A DNA stretch of 64,000 bases, taken from NCBI RefSeq assembly GCF_005280655.1, contig NZ_CP040058.1:219001-283000 (forward strand), written 5' to 3'. This DNA comes from Anaerostipes rhamnosivorans (GTDB lineage: Bacteria; Bacillota; Clostridia; Lachnospirales; Lachnospiraceae). The notes under the pieces are model-generated. The model was given only the letters and a program-made list of their open reading frames with translations. It had not been told where the DNA came from and ran no database searches. This document shows positions 1,236 through 40,324 of the stretch, piece by piece (the first letter of the stretch is position 1; every line of letters begins with the position of its first letter). The translations under genes were made by a program, and so were the position numbers.

Positions 1236-3869
1236 ATGGGGAAACAGGGTAATAAGGATAAAATTATAAAACTTCTCATGGAAAACAAAAAAGCGCAGAC
1301 TGCAGAGGAAATCGCAATTAGCCTGAAGATCCAGCGGAATACAGCCAGTGCTATTTTAAATGAACTTGCCAGAGAAGGAGTTATTCAAAAAGAAAAAACA
1401 AGACCGGTAATGTTTTCTTATATTGAGAAAGATTTTATGCCCTCTGATGACCCATTCGTTTCCTTTATCGGAGCCGGAAAAAGTTTGAGAGAAACAGTGG
1501 AAAAGTGTAAATTGTCAGCGGCATATCCAAAGAGAGGTATGCCGGTTTTATTGCTGGGGCCAAGCGGCGTGGGGAAAAGCCTGCTGGCGGAATACATTTA
1601 TAAATATGCAAAGTATGTTCATACGATACCGGAGGATGCACCGTTTATAGTGTTAAACTGCGCAGACTATGCAAATAATAAGGAATTGCTGTCTTCTATA
1701 TTATTTGGATACAAAAAAGGAGCGTTTACCGGGGCAAATAGTGATACAAAGGGGCTGATTGAAGAAGCCAACAAAGGATACTTATTTTTGGATGAAGTGC
1801 ACCGCCTTTCTCCGGAAGGGCAGGAAAAGCTATTCCATTATATTGATAAAGGGGTAGTATCCAGGATTGGAGATAACGGACATAATATCAAATTGAATGT
1901 CAGGCTGATTTTTGCAACAACAGAAGGAAAGGAACAGATGCTGGATACATTCTTAAGAAGAATTCCGGTGGATGTGACGTTACCTGCATTTCATGAAAGA
2001 ACATTGGAAGAAAAATATCAGTTGATTATTCATTTGATTCATCAAGAGGCATCCATTATGGAATGTGACTTTCTGGCCAGCAGTAATATTATCAATCACC
2101 TGTTGACGTTTCAGGGAAAAGGGAATATCGGAAGTCTGCGCAATATTATCAAACTGTCATGTGCCAAGGCATATAATAAGTCAAAAAATAAAGCAGATAT
2201 GATACCGGTGAACTTGAGACATTTATCAGATACGCAGCTATTTATGGGAAACACTGGATCTGTCCATTATGTGAATGAGGATGTTGAAATTCTGGCAAAT
2301 GAAAAGGCGGTTCAAGTAAATGCGAGAACAGAACAAGTAAATATCTATTTCCCGGCAGAGACGATTGCTGCTACCGTTTATGAATATTTAGAAAAGAAAA
2401 TATCAAAGGTTCAGTTCAGAAAAACTATATATAATGAGATCAACCAGATGATAGAGGATGTCATTTACCAGGAAATTGACCCTTTTATCCAAAATCTATA
2501 TAATCAGGCCATCGAAAATATCTTGGTTTATCTTCAAGATAATTATGGCCTGAAATATAATGGGATCATGGAAATGGTGTTTGTTAAAATATTATATGCC
2601 CTGAATAATCAGAGTGAGAAGCTTGATGACACCCGATATGAAATAATTGTGAATAAGCTGCAGCCAGTGATGTATCGCTACTATAAAATGGGTCTGATCT
2701 TTAATGAAATGGTCCATCAGAATATCGACTATGAGACAAATCCTTGGTTTGTGAGGTTATTTGCCATGCTTTATTTTTACAGCGTGGCAAAAGAAGACAG
2801 GGAATACACGAACGCTATTATTGTATCCCATGGGCCGGCTACGGCGTCCAGCATTGCCAGTACGGTAAACCGGGTATTTGAAACTTACATTTTTGAAGCC
2901 TTTGATATGGCGTATGATACGCCGAAAAATAAGGTTGTTTCAAGAATTAAGAAGTATTTAAAGAATACGAATACATCCAAGGGTCTTTTGATCTTCGTGG
3001 ACATGGGATCTCTGTTAAGTATCAGCAAGGATTTAAAGGATGATGTGGAGGGAGACCTTGGGATTGTAAACAATATTACGACGGAAATGGCTTTAGAGGC
3101 AGGAGAATTAATTTTGAACCACGAGGATCTGCAGGATGTTATGGATAAAATCATCTCCCATCATGTTACTAAGAGATCTTATGTGCCGAGCAGGCAGAAA
3201 CCAAAAGCCATTGTCTTATGCTGTATCACAGGGTTGGGAACTGCATCCAAAATGAAGACACTCCTCCAGGAATGTTTAGAGGGAATGGAACTGCAAGTAG
3301 TGGAGGTATCATTTTCTGACCTGCAGAAGAAAGGCAGCCAGTGTGATATTTTCCGAAAATATAACGTACAGTTTATTGTCACGACCAGTAAGGTGAAGGT
3401 GGAGGACTACATTGCGATCCATTTGAATGAATTGATTGATAAACGGGGTGAAGAGGTCATCTATGCTACAATTGGCAAGTATTATGAAAAGGAAAAGGTA
3501 CATAAATTTATCGAAAATATTGTCCGCAGTTTTACCATGAGAAACCTGATTGGCCAGTTAACGATCCTTAACCCGGATAAAATTATGAATGATGTGGAAG
3601 AGGCGGTGACCAGGCTTGAAATATTGGAGGGAACTCATTACCCTATTGATTTAAAAAAGATGCTTTATATCCATATGTGTGTGATGGTAGAGCGCTTAAT
3701 ATTAGAGAAAGGGTCGCTGCCGGACGATAACTCGACACAAGATCTAAAGTGTCGGGAAAGCTTTATGAAAAACTTAAAAGAAAGCTTTTCTGTCTTGGAA
3801 GACCAGTATAATGTGTCGATTAACAATCTTGAAATTCAAATGATCTATAATCTAATTCAAAATATCTGA
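1236..3869 (+). CDS. LevR-family sigma-54-dependent PTS regulator
   Basis: This is an 877-residue activator of sigma-54 promoters, controlled by PTS phosphorylation. In order it has an N-terminal winged helix (about 5-60), an AAA+ domain with Walker A GPSGVGKS (108-115), the sigma-54 contact loop GAFTGA (162-167) and Walker B LFLDEVH (Asp186), a PRD (about 405-510), a mannose-type EIIA-like domain with AIIVSHG (about 525-650), an EIIB-like domain starting near AIVLCCITG (about 658) and a C-terminal PRD. This is the normal LevR order and close to its usual length. It is followed by a terminator and then by a -24/-12 promoter before a mannose-family PTS operon, which is its evident target. Start: ATG after AGAGGAGAGAG. 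By family precedent it is activated when inducer uptake drains phosphate from the PTS. Confidence 0.93.
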   Translation: MGKQGNKDKIIKLLMENKKAQTAEEIAISLKIQRNTASAILNELAREGVIQKEKTRPVMFSYIEKDFMPSDDPFVSFIGAGKSLRETVEKCKLSAAYPKRGMPVLLLGPSGVGKSLLAEYIYKYAKYVHTIPEDAPFIVLNCADYANNKELLSSILFGYKKGAFTGANSDTKGLIEEANKGYLFLDEVHRLSPEGQEKLFHYIDKGVVSRIGDNGHNIKLNVRLIFATTEGKEQMLDTFLRRIPVDVTLPAFHERTLEEKYQLIIHLIHQEASIMECDFLASSNIINHLLTFQGKGNIGSLRNIIKLSCAKAYNKSKNKADMIPVNLRHLSDTQLFMGNTGSVHYVNEDVEILANEKAVQVNARTEQVNIYFPAETIAATVYEYLEKKISKVQFRKTIYNEINQMIEDVIYQEIDPFIQNLYNQAIENILVYLQDNYGLKYNGIMEMVFVKILYALNNQSEKLDDTRYEIIVNKLQPVMYRYYKMGLIFNEMVHQNIDYETNPWFVRLFAMLYFYSVAKEDREYTNAIIVSHGPATASSIASTVNRVFETYIFEAFDMAYDTPKNKVVSRIKKYLKNTNTSKGLLIFVDMGSLLSISKDLKDDVEGDLGIVNNITTEMALEAGELILNHEDLQDVMDKIISHHVTKRSYVPSRQKPKAIVLCCITGLGTASKMKTLLQECLEGMELQVVEVSFSDLQKKGSQCDIFRKYNVQFIVTTSKVKVEDYIAIHLNELIDKRGEEVIYATIGKYYEKEKVHKFIENIVRSFTMRNLIGQLTILNPDKIMNDVEEAVTRLEILEGTHYPIDLKKMLYIHMCVMVERLILEKGSLPDDNSTQDLKCRESFMKNLKESFSVLEDQYNVSINNLEIQMIYNLIQNI

Positions 3870-3886
3870 AAAAATCCAGAATCATA

Positions 3887-3930
3887 AAGCTTGTATTTAT
3901 GCCATTTTTATAAATACAGGCTTTTTTATT
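3887..3930 (+). terminator. Intrinsic terminator of the LevR-type gene
   Basis: A 14-bp stem (3887-3900 with 3910-3923, one G-T pair) with a 9-base loop is followed by a run of six T's. Confidence 0.85.
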
Positions 3931-3947
3931 TTACCTAAAATTAAAAG

Positions 3948-3965
3948 TTGGCATGGAAGTTGCTT
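3948..3965 (+). promoter_or_regulatory. Sigma-54 (-24/-12) promoter of the first mannose-family PTS operon
   Basis: TTGGCATGGAAGTTGCTT matches the consensus TGGCAC-N5-TTGC, with the invariant GG (3950-3951) and GC (3962-3963) 12 bases apart. It lies about 85 bases before the first PTS gene and directly after a sigma-54 activator gene. Confidence 0.9.
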
Positions 3966-4051
3966 TATATAAAAGTGAAGGTTGATTGATGCGGGACATC
4001 AGAGTGCAAGTGTCAAGTTTCCTTACGATATAGATCTGGAAAGGAGGAGAA

Positions 4052-4474
4052 ATGGTCGGATTAATTATTGCAACACATGGAAACACGGGCGTTGAACTGG
4101 TAAAGAGCGCGGAGATGTTCTCAGGCTCATTGGCAAATTATGAAACATGGGCTTTGAACCCAGGAGATAATATTGAGCTTGGAGAAAAAAGGATGGAACA
4201 GTATGTGAAAGAGCTGGATGAAGGTCAGGGAGTTCTCATCATGACGGACTTATTCGGAGGTACTCCATCAAATCTGGCGTTAAAGATTTCCATGAGAGAA
4301 CATGTGGGAGTACTAACAGGTGTGAACTTTCCAATGCTGATTCAATTTATATCAGACAGAGAGAAAAGTTCAATGGATGAATTGATTACAAAATGTGAAG
4401 AGTCAGGAAAGAGTGGAATTATGTGTCCAAGCAAGTCAATGGAGGCGAGGAGGAAGAAAGATGGCAGATATTAA
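4052..4474 (+). CDS. PTS mannose-family EIIA component
   Basis: This 140-residue cytoplasmic protein accepts phosphate from HPr on the histidine in IIATHGN (His9) and passes it to the EIIB next to it. MTDLFGGTPSN (about 65-75) is the family signature near the active site. It is the first gene of an operon that continues with IIB, IIC, IID, a Gfo/Idh oxidoreductase and a NagB-type deaminase. RBS AAAGGAGG precedes the ATG. Its C-terminus overlaps the start of the EIIB gene by 14 bases, so the two are probably translationally coupled. It has the full length for a stand-alone IIA domain. Confidence 0.95.
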   Translation: MVGLIIATHGNTGVELVKSAEMFSGSLANYETWALNPGDNIELGEKRMEQYVKELDEGQGVLIMTDLFGGTPSNLALKISMREHVGVLTGVNFPMLIQFISDREKSSMDELITKCEESGKSGIMCPSKSMEARRKKDGRY

Positions 4475-8910: not shown

Positions 8911-8954
8911 ACAAGCATAGCAACAGACAACAAGGAACATTCAAAAATCTAATA

Positions 8955-9048
8955 TACAGGGGTGCTGGCGTCATGCCGGCTGAGAGTAAGGCAAATGGAG
9001 CCTTTAACCCTTATACCTGATCTGGATAATGCCAGCGTAGGAATAGAA
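8955..9048 (+). ncRNA. TPP riboswitch (THI element)
   Basis: The sequence has the conserved THI-box blocks in order: GGGGTGCTGGCG (8959-8970), GGCTGAGAGTAAGGC (8978-8992), ACCCTTATACCTGATCTGG (9007-9025) and AATGCCAGCGTAGGAA (9028-9043). Thiamin pyrophosphate binding should favour the terminator at 9070-9098 and switch the operon off. Confidence 0.96.
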
Positions 9049-9069
9049 CAGCACAAACTGTGACAATTA

Positions 9070-35045: not shown

Positions 35046-35074
35046 AACTTCCATAAAAGAAAATTAAATGTGAA

Positions 35075-35298
35075 AACACGATGATCAGGACAGAGAGCAT
35101 CCTTTAGTCTTTGCAGAGAGCCGGCGGCTGGTGAAAGCCGGAAAGAACGGGAAGCCTTACATCACCTGGGAGTGGCTTGAGTGAAGTAAAAGAGTAATTT
35201 AAGACGGGAGCTCCCGTTACAGAGCCGGATATTGTCAGATATCCAGAGTGTGCATGATTGTGCAAAAAAGAGTGGTACCGCGGATGATAGATTATTTC
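35075..35298 (+). ncRNA. T-box leader (tRNA-sensing)
   Basis: The leader contains the stem I landmarks AGAGAGCCGGCGGCTGGTG (35114-35132) and the antiterminator box AGTGGTACCGCGG (35271-35283). The terminator at 35299-35336 closes it. From the spacing to CTGGGAG the specifier triplet is probably ATC (isoleucine), at about 35161-35163; TAC in the same loop is the alternative. I rate this reading as tentative. Confidence 0.92.
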
Positions 35299-35336
35299 GT
35301 CTCTTTATGTTTTCGGACATAAAGAGACTTTTTTTT
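35299..35336 (+). terminator. T-box terminator
   Basis: GTCTCTTTATGT pairs with ACATAAAGAGAC and is followed by eight T's. Its T run is also the left arm of the family 2 hairpin. Confidence 0.92.
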
Positions 35337-35477
35337 ATGTCATAGGAAATTCCTACGGAACCTCCTATGACATAAAAAACGCTCCGCGAGGATCGCACTG
35401 CGGCGGTAAGGATTTATGTCGCCAATGCGACCCGCCGCAGGCGGAGAATCCCGCTTGTGGGATTCTTTCTTGTTCTG
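35331..35477 (+). repeat. Family 2 leader element, copy A (four hairpins)
   Basis: P1: TTTTTTATGTCATAGG (35331-35346) pairs with 35364-35379, and inside it TTCC (35350-35353) pairs with GGAA. P3: TGCGGCGG (35399-35406) pairs with CCGCCGCA (35432-35439), with an 11-base bulge on its 5' side and an inner GTCGC-CAAT-GCGAC. P4: AGAATCCC (35445-35452) pairs with GGGATTCT, followed by TTCTTGTTCT. The same plan is found at 43185. It fills the space between the T-box terminator and the dehydrogenase start. Confidence 0.8.
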
Positions 35478-35505
35478 TAGCTACGCCGGGAAAGGAGTTT
35501 TATTT

Positions 35506-36612
35506 ATGGGTTATTACAGTGTAAATTTACCAAGTTATACAATAGGAGAGGGGTGTTACGGCGAGATTCCGAAGACTGCGCGTTTTCTTGGAAAGACCGC
35601 GGTTGTCATCGGCGGAAAGACTGCTATGGCAAAGGCCAGGGAAAAGCTTTTAGAGGGAGTGGAAGATTCTGATATGGAAATCTTGGATTTTGTCTGGTAC
35701 GGGGGAGATTCTACTTATGAGAACGGAAATGCGCTGATGCAGCTAGAAGCAGTAAAAAAGGCAGACATGGTTTTTGCCGTGGGAGGCGGACGTGCATGTG
35801 ATACGTGCAAATACCTGGCAAATGAAATGGATAAACCGTTATTTTGTTTTCCTACAGTGGCTTCTAACTGTGCTGCTGTTACGGCGATCTCCGTAATTTA
35901 CAATCCGGATGGTTCTTTCAAGGAATATTACTATCCGAAAGTGGCGGATCATACATTTATAGAATCATCTATTATTGCGGATTCTCCGGAAGAGCTTTTA
36001 TGGGCAGGGATTGGGGATGCCCTGAGCAAGGAATGTGAAGCAGTGTTCGCATCCAGGGAAGATGAATTGTCCCATACACCTATGATGGGCGTACAGCTCA
36101 GCCGCATCTGCACCAGCCCCCTAGTTGAATATGGAAGACAGGCACTGGAGGATCTAAAGAATAAACAGGTTTCTTACGCACTGGAGCAGGTAACACTGGA
36201 TATCATTATAAGCACAGGTCTGGTATCCAATATGGTCAGCAACGCACCTCATTATTATTATAATTCCAGCCTGGCCCATTGTGTATATTACGGGTCTACG
36301 GTTACAAAGGGCGGCCACCAGCACCTTCATGGAGAAGTGGTATCTCTTGGTGTTCTGTGTCTCTTGACATTTGCAGAAGAGCTTGAGGAGAGAGAGCGGA
36401 TTGCCGGATTCAACTTAAGTATGGGGCTGCCGGTATGTTTTGATGATATTGAAGTTTCGGAGGATGAATTTGAGGCGATGGCAGAGAAGGCCATAACGAC
36501 CACAGAATGGGAATTTCGTCCGAAAAAAAGCGGGGTCACAAAAGAGAGTTTTATTCGATGTATGAGAGAGACAAATAGGTATGGAAAAGCATTGAAAAAA
36601 AGAATGAATTAG
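35506..36612 (+). CDS. GldA-like iron-containing alcohol dehydrogenase
   Basis: This 368-residue protein is in the glycerol dehydrogenase branch: FAVGGGRACDTCKYLA (nucleotide site, about 88-103), FPTVASNCAAVTAIS, the metal ligand region IGDALSKECEA and a His in GGHQHLHGEVVSLGVL. The substrate is a vicinal diol or hydroxy compound; it is not clearly glycerol. I chose ATG 35506, eight bases after AAAGGAG; an earlier ATG at 35416 lies in the leader element. The gene is downstream of a T-box, which is an unusual regulator for such an enzyme. Confidence 0.88.
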   Translation: MGYYSVNLPSYTIGEGCYGEIPKTARFLGKTAVVIGGKTAMAKAREKLLEGVEDSDMEILDFVWYGGDSTYENGNALMQLEAVKKADMVFAVGGGRACDTCKYLANEMDKPLFCFPTVASNCAAVTAISVIYNPDGSFKEYYYPKVADHTFIESSIIADSPEELLWAGIGDALSKECEAVFASREDELSHTPMMGVQLSRICTSPLVEYGRQALEDLKNKQVSYALEQVTLDIIISTGLVSNMVSNAPHYYYNSSLAHCVYYGSTVTKGGHQHLHGEVVSLGVLCLLTFAEELEERERIAGFNLSMGLPVCFDDIEVSEDEFEAMAEKAITTTEWEFRPKKSGVTKESFIRCMRETNRYGKALKKRMN

Positions 36613-37576: not shown

Positions 37577-37672
37577 ATGGTTCATCGTATTTTTACCTTG
37601 AGGTTTGCGTGGTCTTCTTGATAAGGTATAATAAGTAAGACAAGTTATTATGAATGTAGAAATGAGTATAGT

Positions 37673-40324
37673 ATGAAAAGATTAGTGATCGGAATTTTGG
37701 CCCACGTGGATGCGGGTAAGACAACACTCTCGGAGGGGCTTCTCTATGAGAGCGGAAGTATCCGCAGTATGGGCCGGGTAGACAATAAGGATGCTTTTTT
37801 AGATACCCATGAGCTTGAAAGGGACAGAGGGATCACCATATTTTCAAAACAGGCTGTGTTTGCCTTTGAAGATATGGAAGTCACTCTTTTAGATACGCCG
37901 GGACATGTGGATTTTTCTGCGGAGATGGAACGGACTTTGCAGGTATTGGACTATGCGGTCCTGGTGATCAGCGGGGCTGACGGGGTACAGGGCCATACCC
38001 AGACACTCTGGCGTCTGCTCAAAAAATATCAGATACCGGTATTCTTGTTTATCAACAAGATGGACCAGGACGGGACAGATAAAGAACTGCTTTTGGAAGA
38101 GTTAAAAAAATACTTGGATGAAGGCTGTGTGGATTTTTCCATGCAGGATGGCGGGAATTTTTATGAGAATATCGCGGTCAGCGATGAAAAGCTTCTGGAT
38201 GAATATTTGGAGTCAGGGAAGATATACACCGGCGGCGTGAGAGAAGTGATTTCAGAGAGAAAGGTTTTTCCATGCTTCTTCGGTTCGGCGTTAAAATCAG
38301 AAGGTGTTCACGAATTCTTAAAGGGGATTGAGACCTATACCAGAGAGATTGAATATCCTGCGGAGTTTGGTGCGAAGGTATTTAAGATTTCCAGAGACAG
38401 TCAGGGGAACCGCCTGACGCATCTTAAGATCACAGGAGGAGTGCTGAAAGTAAAGGCAGTTTTAAAAAGCGGTGATGAGGAGGAAAAGGTCAATCAGATC
38501 CGCATATACTCCGGAGAAAAGTATCAGACGGCAGATGAAGCACAGGCAGGTACAGTGTGCGCGGTCACGGGGCTTACAAAAACCAAGCCGGGTCATGGAT
38601 TCGGGATGGAAGAGGGTGGTTTTGAACCGGCATTGGAACCTGTCCTGACTTATAAGGTCATCCTGCCGGAAGGGACCAGTGCCAGCGTGATGCTGCCCAA
38701 GTTAAGACAGCTTCAGGAGGAAGAGCCGGAGCTTCACATTGTGTGGAACGAAGAACTCCAGGAGATTCAGGTGCAGATCATGGGAGAGGTGCAGCTGGAA
38801 ATATTAAAGAGCCTGATCGAGGAAAGGTTTGATACTTCTATAGAATTTGGAACCGGAAATATTGTCTATAAAGAGACCATTAATAACACAGTGGAAGGTG
38901 TGGGGCATTTTGAACCCTTGAGGCATTATGCGGAAGTACATCTTCTAATGGAGCCATTGGAGCCGGGAAGCGGCCTTCAGTTTGATTCTTCGTGCAGTGA
39001 AGATATGCTGGATAAAAACTGGCAGCGGCTGGTCCTGACGCATTTACAGGAGAGGGAGCACCCGGGTGTGCTCACAGGTTCGGCGGTCACAGATATGAAG
39101 ATCACTCTGGCAGCGGGCCGTGCCCATCTAAAGCATACAGAAGGAGGGGATTTCCGCCAGGCTACCTACAGGGCAGTGCGCCAGGGACTGAAACAGGCAG
39201 AGAGTGTGCTGTTGGAGCCGTACTACGAGTTCCGGCTGGAAGTGCCTCAGCAGATGGTGGGACGGGCTATGTCGGATATTGAGCGGATGTCTGGCAGTTT
39301 TGAGAATCCCCAGACGGAAGGGGAGATGTCAGTATTGGCCGGAAGCGCGCCGGTATCAGAAATGTGCGATTACCAGAAGGAAGTCATCGCCTATACAAAA
39401 GGACAAGGGCGTCTTTTCTGTACTTTAAAGGGTTATGAGCCATGCCACAATGCCAAAGAGGTGATTGAAAAGGTTGGTTATGATTCTGAGAGAGATGTAA
39501 AGAATCCTACAGGATCTGTTTTTTGTTCCCACGGGGCAGGATTTACGGTGAGCTGGGACCAGGTGAAGGACTATATGCATCTGGACAGCCAGTTAAATTC
39601 AGACGGCGGAAATCTTAACGAAGATGATACGGTACGGCAGACGTACACAGAAGAGGAATTCATCGACACAGAAGAGATTGACCGGATCATTGAGCAGACG
39701 TATTTTGCAAACAGAAAGCAGAAGAGCGGGTGGAAGAAAAAGAAACTGGAAAGGACTATTGAAGATTATAAGAGTTCTGTATCCAGGGCAGCGGTCAAGA
39801 AAACTTCAGGGAAAAAGTATCTGCTGGTGGACGGTTATAATATCATTTTTGCCTGGGATGATCTGAGGGAACTGGCAAAAGCTAATATTGACGCGGCAAG
39901 AGGAAAGCTTTTGGATATTATGAGCAACTATCAGGGGCTTAGGAAATGTGAACTGATCGTTGTTTTTGATGCGTACCGGGTGGCAGGACACGATACGGAA
40001 ATTCTGGATTACCATAACATTCATGTGGTTTATACGAAGGAAGCCGAGACTGCCGATCAATATATAGAAAAATTTGCGCATGAACACGGACGAAAATATG
40101 ATGTGACAGTGGCGACCTCCGATGGGCTGGAACAGATCATCATCAGGGGACAGGGATGTTCTCTGCTTTCCGCCAGAGAGCTGCTCGAGGAAGTAAATTT
40201 GGCAAGCCAGAAACTACGGGAGGAATATCTCGACAAACAGAAAAAAGAACGCCGTTATCTTCTGGATTCTGTGTCAGAGGAGGAGCGGGAAAAACTGAGG
40301 AATCTGAAGGAAACCAATGAATGA
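37673..40324 (+). CDS. TetM/TetO-like ribosomal-protection GTPase fused to a YacP/Rae1-like NYN nuclease domain
   Basis: This 883-residue protein has an EF-G-like GTPase: G1 AHVDAGKTT (10-18), RDRGITIF, G3 DTPGH (74-78) and G4 NKMD (128-131). EF-G domains II-V run to about residue 650 (FEPLRHYAEVHLLMEP is typical of ribosomal-protection proteins). After a Lys/Arg-rich linker (about 675-712), residues 714-865 form an NYN domain: KKYLLVDGYNIIFAW (Asp720), VVFDAYRV (Asp766) and ATSDGLEQ (Asp817), the acidic residues expected of the Rae1/YacP ribosome-associated endonuclease. Ordinary TetM is about 640 residues. Whether it gives tetracycline resistance is unknown. The next gene overlaps it. Confidence 0.93.
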   Translation: MKRLVIGILAHVDAGKTTLSEGLLYESGSIRSMGRVDNKDAFLDTHELERDRGITIFSKQAVFAFEDMEVTLLDTPGHVDFSAEMERTLQVLDYAVLVISGADGVQGHTQTLWRLLKKYQIPVFLFINKMDQDGTDKELLLEELKKYLDEGCVDFSMQDGGNFYENIAVSDEKLLDEYLESGKIYTGGVREVISERKVFPCFFGSALKSEGVHEFLKGIETYTREIEYPAEFGAKVFKISRDSQGNRLTHLKITGGVLKVKAVLKSGDEEEKVNQIRIYSGEKYQTADEAQAGTVCAVTGLTKTKPGHGFGMEEGGFEPALEPVLTYKVILPEGTSASVMLPKLRQLQEEEPELHIVWNEELQEIQVQIMGEVQLEILKSLIEERFDTSIEFGTGNIVYKETINNTVEGVGHFEPLRHYAEVHLLMEPLEPGSGLQFDSSCSEDMLDKNWQRLVLTHLQEREHPGVLTGSAVTDMKITLAAGRAHLKHTEGGDFRQATYRAVRQGLKQAESVLLEPYYEFRLEVPQQMVGRAMSDIERMSGSFENPQTEGEMSVLAGSAPVSEMCDYQKEVIAYTKGQGRLFCTLKGYEPCHNAKEVIEKVGYDSERDVKNPTGSVFCSHGAGFTVSWDQVKDYMHLDSQLNSDGGNLNEDDTVRQTYTEEEFIDTEEIDRIIEQTYFANRKQKSGWKKKKLERTIEDYKSSVSRAAVKKTSGKKYLLVDGYNIIFAWDDLRELAKANIDAARGKLLDIMSNYQGLRKCELIVVFDAYRVAGHDTEILDYHNIHVVYTKEAETADQYIEKFAHEHGRKYDVTVATSDGLEQIIIRGQGCSLLSARELLEEVNLASQKLREEYLDKQKKERRYLLDSVSEEEREKLRNLKETNE

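Follow-up and report, generated by a model that had tools for sequence, protein, structure and literature searches.

What is the work of a protein that carries a translational GTPase and a ribonuclease on one chain? The question is raised by a gene of Anaerostipes rhamnosivorans at 37673..40324 (+) of the window, by which we mean the whole 64,000-nt stretch of contig NZ_CP040058.1 analyzed here; the gene starts with ATG and runs as a single continuous reading frame of 883 aa. We put a probability of roughly 60% on the reading that its product is a chromosomal housekeeping ribosome-associated mRNA endonuclease riding on its own translational GTPase, and that it replaces Rae1 (YacP) in many clostridia. 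In the GTPase half, Pfam places GTP_EFTU at residues 4-223, EF-G_D2 at 232-303, EFG_III at 322-393, EFG_IV at 396-510 and EFG_C at 512-595; domains G, II, III, IV and V of an EF-G-type translational GTPase are all present, with the GTP-binding motifs intact. NYN_YacP follows at residues 717-879 (E 4e-54, 183.4 bits against a cut-off of 24.6), and this part matches in sequence the PDB chain 5mq9, ‘Uncharacterized protein YacP’ (E 1e-24). A first, sequence-only reading of the DNA had proposed a GTPase followed by an NYN domain with Asp720, Asp766 and Asp817, which the reading frame, Pfam and the PDB alignment bear out: these residues align with D7, D53 and D104 of 5mq9, and a fourth acid that it had missed, D795, aligns with D81 (chain numbers counted on the alignment). 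Judged by its sequence, the NYN part is a YacP/Rae1-type nuclease domain. The parts of the gene are as follows.

37673..40324 (+): fused translational GTPase and NYN (YacP/Rae1) nuclease gene, 883 aa plus stop (ORF, Pfam)
37673..38341 (+): G domain, residues 1-223, with G1-G5 motifs AHVDAGKTT, RGITI, DTPGH, NKMD and SAL (Pfam, 89-sequence column counts)
38342..38857 (+): domains II and III, residues 224-395 (Pfam, structure model)
38858..39205 (+): domain IV, residues 396-511, the best conserved part, mean majority 0.83 (Pfam, column counts)
39116..39157 (+): domain-IV tip GRAHLKHTEGGDFR, residues 482-495 (alignment)
39206..39457 (+): domain V, residues 512-595 (Pfam, structure model)
39458..39592 (+): subfamily extension, residues 596-640, GYDSERDxxNPTGSVFCSHGAGF..WDQVKDYMHL (alignment)
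39593..39814 (+): linker, residues 641-714, mostly disordered (pLDDT <50 at 645-664 and 678-710)
39668-39712 (+): short conserved linker helix, residues 666-680, with E668, I672 and T676, modeled at a pLDDT of only 54-59 (alignment, model)
39815..40222 (+): NYN (YacP/Rae1) nuclease domain, residues 715-850 (Pfam, PDB match, columns)
39830-39832, 39968-39970, 40055-40057 and 40121-40123 (+): NYN acids D720, D766, D795 and D817 (alignment)
40223..40321 (+): C-terminal tail, residues 851-883, poorly conserved (column counts)

Conservation was counted over 89 non-identical fused proteins, made up of the window's own, 17 loci and 71 further loci, the last being the 72 that passed a full-length filter among the best 80 of at least 591, minus one duplicate. 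The choice of the best 80 with a domain IV-V profile builds in likeness to the window, and the counts mostly rest there: D720 and D766 are kept in 89/89 proteins, D795 and D817 in 88/88 rows with a letter at the column, and the G motifs are near-invariant. All four acids are also kept in 17/17 further, more divergent fused rows of the alignment; D720, D766 and D817, on whose conservation the sequence-only reading had made its nuclease depend, are thus invariant in both sets. The same 17/17 divergent rows share a tip core of KH(T/S) or RHT, with the first tip histidine missing in two of them (L205 and L212). Over the 89 proteins the mean majority per column is 0.83 in domain IV, 0.73 in the extension, 0.71 in the G domain, 0.70 in the NYN domain and 0.31 in the linker, and selection looks to be acting on both engines of the fusion, on domain IV most. 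The GTPase and NYN parts are fused in one frame at 77 of these best 80 loci, the NYN part lying in a different frame from the GTPase at the other three (L082, L102 and L123). When fused domains are set against standalone YacP proteins, the four acids and 23 columns reach at least 90% in both sets. Specifically altered in the fused form is R831, which is conserved in standalone YacP but replaced in most fused rows, while E792, A829, E836 and L837 are less conserved there, and because of these changes the substrate contacts of the fused NYN domain may differ, which tells against a mere duplicate of Rae1.

The GTPase half resembles the ribosomal protection proteins TetM and TetO, which give its best PDB sequence matches, and a fold search limited to residues 1-627 returned the TetM fold with its five domains. 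Some database entries for the fused protein are named for tetracycline resistance, others EF-G or GTP-binding protein. Atkinson 2015 reports, in the part of PMC4342817 that concerns these proteins, that in ten clostridial species a YacP-like NYN domain was added to Tet proteins, and suggests resistance to antibiotics through RNase activity; the architecture is the same, and the window protein belongs to this set. The PDB matches, the fold, the Tet names and the 2015 suggestion speak for a protein that confers resistance to tetracycline or another A-site drug, its nuclease adding to the protection. Against the curated tet_protect model, however, the fused protein scores 440.5 bits for a cut-off of 775, and it falls below every Tet cut-off tried, whereas L003, the genome's own Tet gene used as a control, reaches 852.4 bits and also passes the TetM/W/O/S cut-off (1307.9 vs 1100). 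L003 is a separate TetM/TetW/TetO/TetS-family gene at about 936.9 kb of the genome, and its product is 31% identical to the fusion. EF-G and RF3 share domains G, II and III with the fusion, which lies below the cut-off of the EF-G equivalog TIGR00484 as well (299.1 vs 659.4 bits); the genome has another EFG_IV gene, L002, a 709-aa frame with an EF-G-type tip. We know of no nuclease on EF-G or RF3.

The clearest differences lie at the domain-IV tip and behind domain V. Aligned with the tip of the fusion, GRAHLKHTEGGDFR, the own-genome Tet protein has LYYSPVSTPADFR and the own-genome EF-G GSYHDVDSSEMAFK, and the loop III motif of Tet(M/O), YYSPVST, is absent from the domain IV of the fusion, where the alignment has GRAHLKHTEGGDF. 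Fused and unfused members of the subfamily carry GRAHxKHT(E/S)GGDF or near variants at the position where L003 has LYYSPVSTPADF and EF-G GSYHDVDSSEMAF, the variants furthest from this pattern being those of L045, L048, L050, P0209 and P0237. The 45-residue extension is likewise common to fused and unfused members and absent from both L003 and the own-genome EF-G. According to the passages of PMC4750697 that deal with it, TetM loop III is held to displace tetracycline and a shortened loop abolishes the action, but a triple S508A P509A V510A TetM was active. Because loop III tolerates some substitutions, the difference in tip is not decisive, and this variability counts on the side of a resistance protein. 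Two observations count against one. Of 200 genera sampled in the window's family, 172 have the GTPase (E 1e-80 or better), which makes it a core rather than an occasional gene, and the loci have no common neighborhood: no operon partner was found, the commonest neighbor family occurring in only 13/88 loci.

We consider a resistance protein quite unlikely; the GTPase looks like one but, as far as scores, tip and extension indicate, probably is not one, and the Tet label in print and in databases is probably wrong. The ‘ribosomal-protection’ identity of the sequence-only reading is not supported by the scores and the different tip, and its suggestion of a role under antibiotic stress finds no support, the genome having a separate Tet gene. 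That reading had also allowed that the fusion might already be characterized as a plain tetracycline-resistance protein, which holds to the extent that it was described as Tet in 2015 and that some entries are so named, but no experiment behind the label was found. In a literature search made largely by listing, outside which lie two Rae1 papers that may discuss the fusion (PMC5412759 and PMC6152456), PMC4342817 is the only paper found to describe it, and no experiment on it was found. The fusion is real, conserved, widespread and in print since 2015. We depart from the resistance suggestion in that part of PMC4342817 by separating the GTPase from Tet and by tracing the nuclease as a relocated Rae1; beyond the same part go this separation, the unfused sister clade and the relocation from the rlmB-sigH slot, as well as the linker helix, the co-occurrence of the two parts and the two fusions that lack a normal domain IV.

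A profile of domains IV, V and the extension (A2) separates the subfamily in a sample of 299 genomes of the phylum, where 18 fused proteins score 353-467 bits, two unfused ones about 325 and the rest about 140 or below. The question of how widespread the fusion is, raised by the sequence-only reading, can thus be answered for this sample: its 18 fused genomes span eight family codes. In Paenibacillus, Bacillus, Neobacillus and others the unfused form is common; it measures about 650 aa. In these ‘translation factor GTPase family’ proteins (Paenibacillus, Bacillus, Neobacillus, Priestia) the tip, mostly GRAHNKHTSGGDFR, is nearly the same as in the fusion and the C-terminal extension is present, but linker and NYN domain are absent, and in G194 and G219 yacP is a separate gene adjoining rlmB. 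In the GTPase tree, the 37 fused rows group in one clade (99/96*) and the unfused rows in another (100/99*), which has 16 rows mostly of Bacilli and a further five of the window's family; the two together form a clade of their own (100/100*) apart from Tet, for which the tree had a single true Tet protein, at the end of a long branch. In the NYN tree, 41 fused domains lie on one side of a branch and 28 standalone YacPs on the other (90/91, unstarred). A single fusion event would fit the one fused clade seen on both trees.

Within the window's family, one part of the GTPase-bearing genomes has open frames of 848-1095 aa in 143/150 cases; a shorter frame still carries the NYN domain in G304, G396, G438 and G449 and its first part in G471, while the NYN part is in a neighboring frame in G340 and on another contig in G393. 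The other 22 GTPase-bearing genomes comprise 17 with frames of 856-1038 aa and 5 with unfused frames of 654-694 aa. YacP is found in 180 of the 200 family genomes, and the 20 without it all lack the GTPase as well. Five genomes show two YacP matches, which look like pieces of one gene in G374, G428 and G471, while in G337 and G452 one of the two is an additional, partial copy located where a contig ends.

Where, then, is the ordinary yacP of the genomes that carry the fusion? Rae1/YacP (PDB 5mq8 and 5mq9; studied in Bacillus subtilis) shares the NYN domain and the four acids with the fusion, but as a standalone protein it is encoded by frames of about 170-210 aa in the rows sampled, adjoining rlmB, whereas the fused form is joined to a GTPase, sits elsewhere and in most rows has R831 replaced. 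At each of the 25 standalone yacP loci among L005-L033 rlmB adjoins yacP; sigH is in view at 23 of them, and mrnC is often nearby. The window's own genome has cysS-mrnC-rlmB-sigH intact, with rlmB and sigH 7 bp apart, and its sole YacP match is the fused one. Likewise, at the 16 rlmB loci over the family cut-off in the 17 other fused genomes, no YacP match is in view; at 15 of them the gaps between the RlmB and SigH alignments are 16-393 bp, too short for yacP, and the remaining one (L180) has no sigH in view. G240, another fused genome, has no rlmB locus over the family cut-off. In the phylum sample, all 18 genomes with the fusion, that of the window among them, have a single YacP match. The fused genomes that were checked thus have no yacP in the rlmB-yacP-sigH slot, and the fusion looks to be a Rae1 that has moved.

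The neighborhood of the standalone gene could also be read as pointing to a factor for rRNA or tRNA maturation or for ribosome assembly, in which the GTPase docks on a subunit and the NYN domain trims RNA. Standalone yacP adjoins rlmB and often mrnC, both genes of rRNA enzymes, a maturation role was proposed for the NYN domain in a 2006 paper cited in the relevant part of PMC4342817, and yacO and rae1 mutations fall in one pathway in the parts of PMC6613710 that treat them. The fused gene, however, lies outside the rlmB-sigH slot, 20/200 family genomes lack both parts, and Rae1, the closest studied relative, appears in the pertinent parts of PMC10100781 and PMC6613710 as a translation-dependent A-site endoribonuclease. 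We regard such a maturation factor as rather unlikely and keep to a relocated mRNA endonuclease. Frames of 249-308 aa at three standalone yacP loci (L051-L053) were considered as further fusions and set aside, as rlmB adjoins and the extra part resembles nothing by eye. One 184-aa standalone NYN protein (L237, in G357) has no rlmB within 5 kb in a genome with an unfused GTPase; it is 62% identical to the window NYN domain, and L240, a standalone NYN protein adjoining rlmB, reaches 61%. L237 is possibly an NYN domain freed from a former fusion.

Whether the two parts work together can be asked where they are not joined. Five family genomes have an unfused GTPase and a separate yacP, adjoining rlmB in four, and a sixth (G397) has an unfused GTPase split over two frames and a separate yacP. 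Among family genomes without a fused gene, leaving out the odd fusions of G433 and G476, YacP is present in 6/6 with an unfused GTPase and in 5/25 without the GTPase (Fisher 0.0006, rising to 0.0018 when the broken copy of G397 is dropped, in a test that ignores kinship and incomplete genomes). This co-occurrence suggests that the GTPase and YacP work together even when unjoined. The parts might instead be two independent, co-expressed activities, a backup EF-G- or EF4-like factor and a tethered Rae1 that acts freely, as a mostly disordered and poorly conserved linker would allow and as the separation of the parts in two Bacilli-like genomes and the five family genomes would agree with. Yet the fusion recurs across eight family codes of the phylum sample, in one fused clade, the linker helix is conserved, and two fusions with a lost or eroded domain IV keep the G motifs joined to the nuclease. 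Independent activities are, on balance, unlikely.

These two odd fusions bear on the mechanism that our preferred reading, a ribosome-associated endonuclease, would use. L232 (G433; 2358-4400, minus strand) consists of G, II, III, linker helix and NYN, and lacks domains IV and V; its protein is in the database as one 661-aa cluster (P0241, 4 members, 2 contigs), beside which all 119 other matches listed have both domains. What remains is similar to the domain content of RF3. L261 (G476, a genome in 2 contigs; 931 aa) has an eroded domain IV, with tip and extension gone, and retains the G motifs and the linker helix; both variants retain the four NYN acids. The G core and the nuclease can therefore outlive domain IV. 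Since two fused proteins do without the domain-IV tip, action of the tip in the A site is not general, and since they keep G motifs, helix and nuclease, the GTPase core alone may be the docking motor.

Rae1 is described as an A-site endoribonuclease whose loss in B. subtilis alleviates the efp swarming defect (in the sections of PMC6613710 on this gene) and as needing translation to destabilize mRNAs (in those of PMC10100781). It is plausible that the GTPase half and the Rae1-type nuclease share the ribosomal site of action. We suppose that the EF-G-like part, loaded with GTP, would dock at the factor site when a 70S ribosome has paused, with domain IV, to go by its fold, directed to the decoding center, and that GTP hydrolysis and release would empty the A site. 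The NYN domain on its 74-residue tether might then reach mRNA in the A site so freed, or mRNA on a neighboring ribosome, and cut it, after which the message would decay and the ribosome be open to rescue. An EF-G-like factor places its domain IV in the A site; a Rae1-type domain would need that one site too, and the two competitors would therefore have to act in turn or on different ribosomes. We favor the order bind, hydrolyze, leave, cut, or else cutting on a neighboring ribosome within reach of the tether. On this model A-site cutting would be gated by GTP. The full version, in which the GTPase recognizes stalled ribosomes and, by hydrolyzing GTP, allows the Rae1 domain on its tether to cut A-site mRNA, we put forward only tentatively, as a doubtful possibility. 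Such a GTP-gated, one-chain nuclease would resemble a clostridial counterpart of GTPase-plus-nuclease no-go decay.

If the endonuclease reading is correct, many clostridia, among them the common gut genera Anaerostipes and Blautia, rely on one protein with two engines for mRNA decay linked to the ribosome, and the fusion offers a direct way to test how a nuclease of the Rae1 type gains access to the A site. Such a result would correct a recurrent misannotation as resistance and define a subfamily of translational GTPases that has a conserved domain-IV tip of its own and for which we found no known function.

Just upstream of the fusion gene, the stop of an eight-codon frame (37650-37676) overlaps the start codon (ATGA). 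This frame was considered as a regulatory leader and rejected, as the upstream sequences of relatives have no common frame (by eye, uncounted). A promoter scan performed at chance level (6 found vs 6.0 expected). An Rfam search of the window gave no match near the fusion gene, both matches lying elsewhere. One, a T-box leader (35072-35307, 122 bits), lies upstream of a gene like those of iron-containing alcohol/glycerol dehydrogenases (35416-36612), which seems to us a surprising target for a switch that senses tRNA. The other is a TPP riboswitch at 8948-9059, which scores 59.1 against a gathering score of 54.3.
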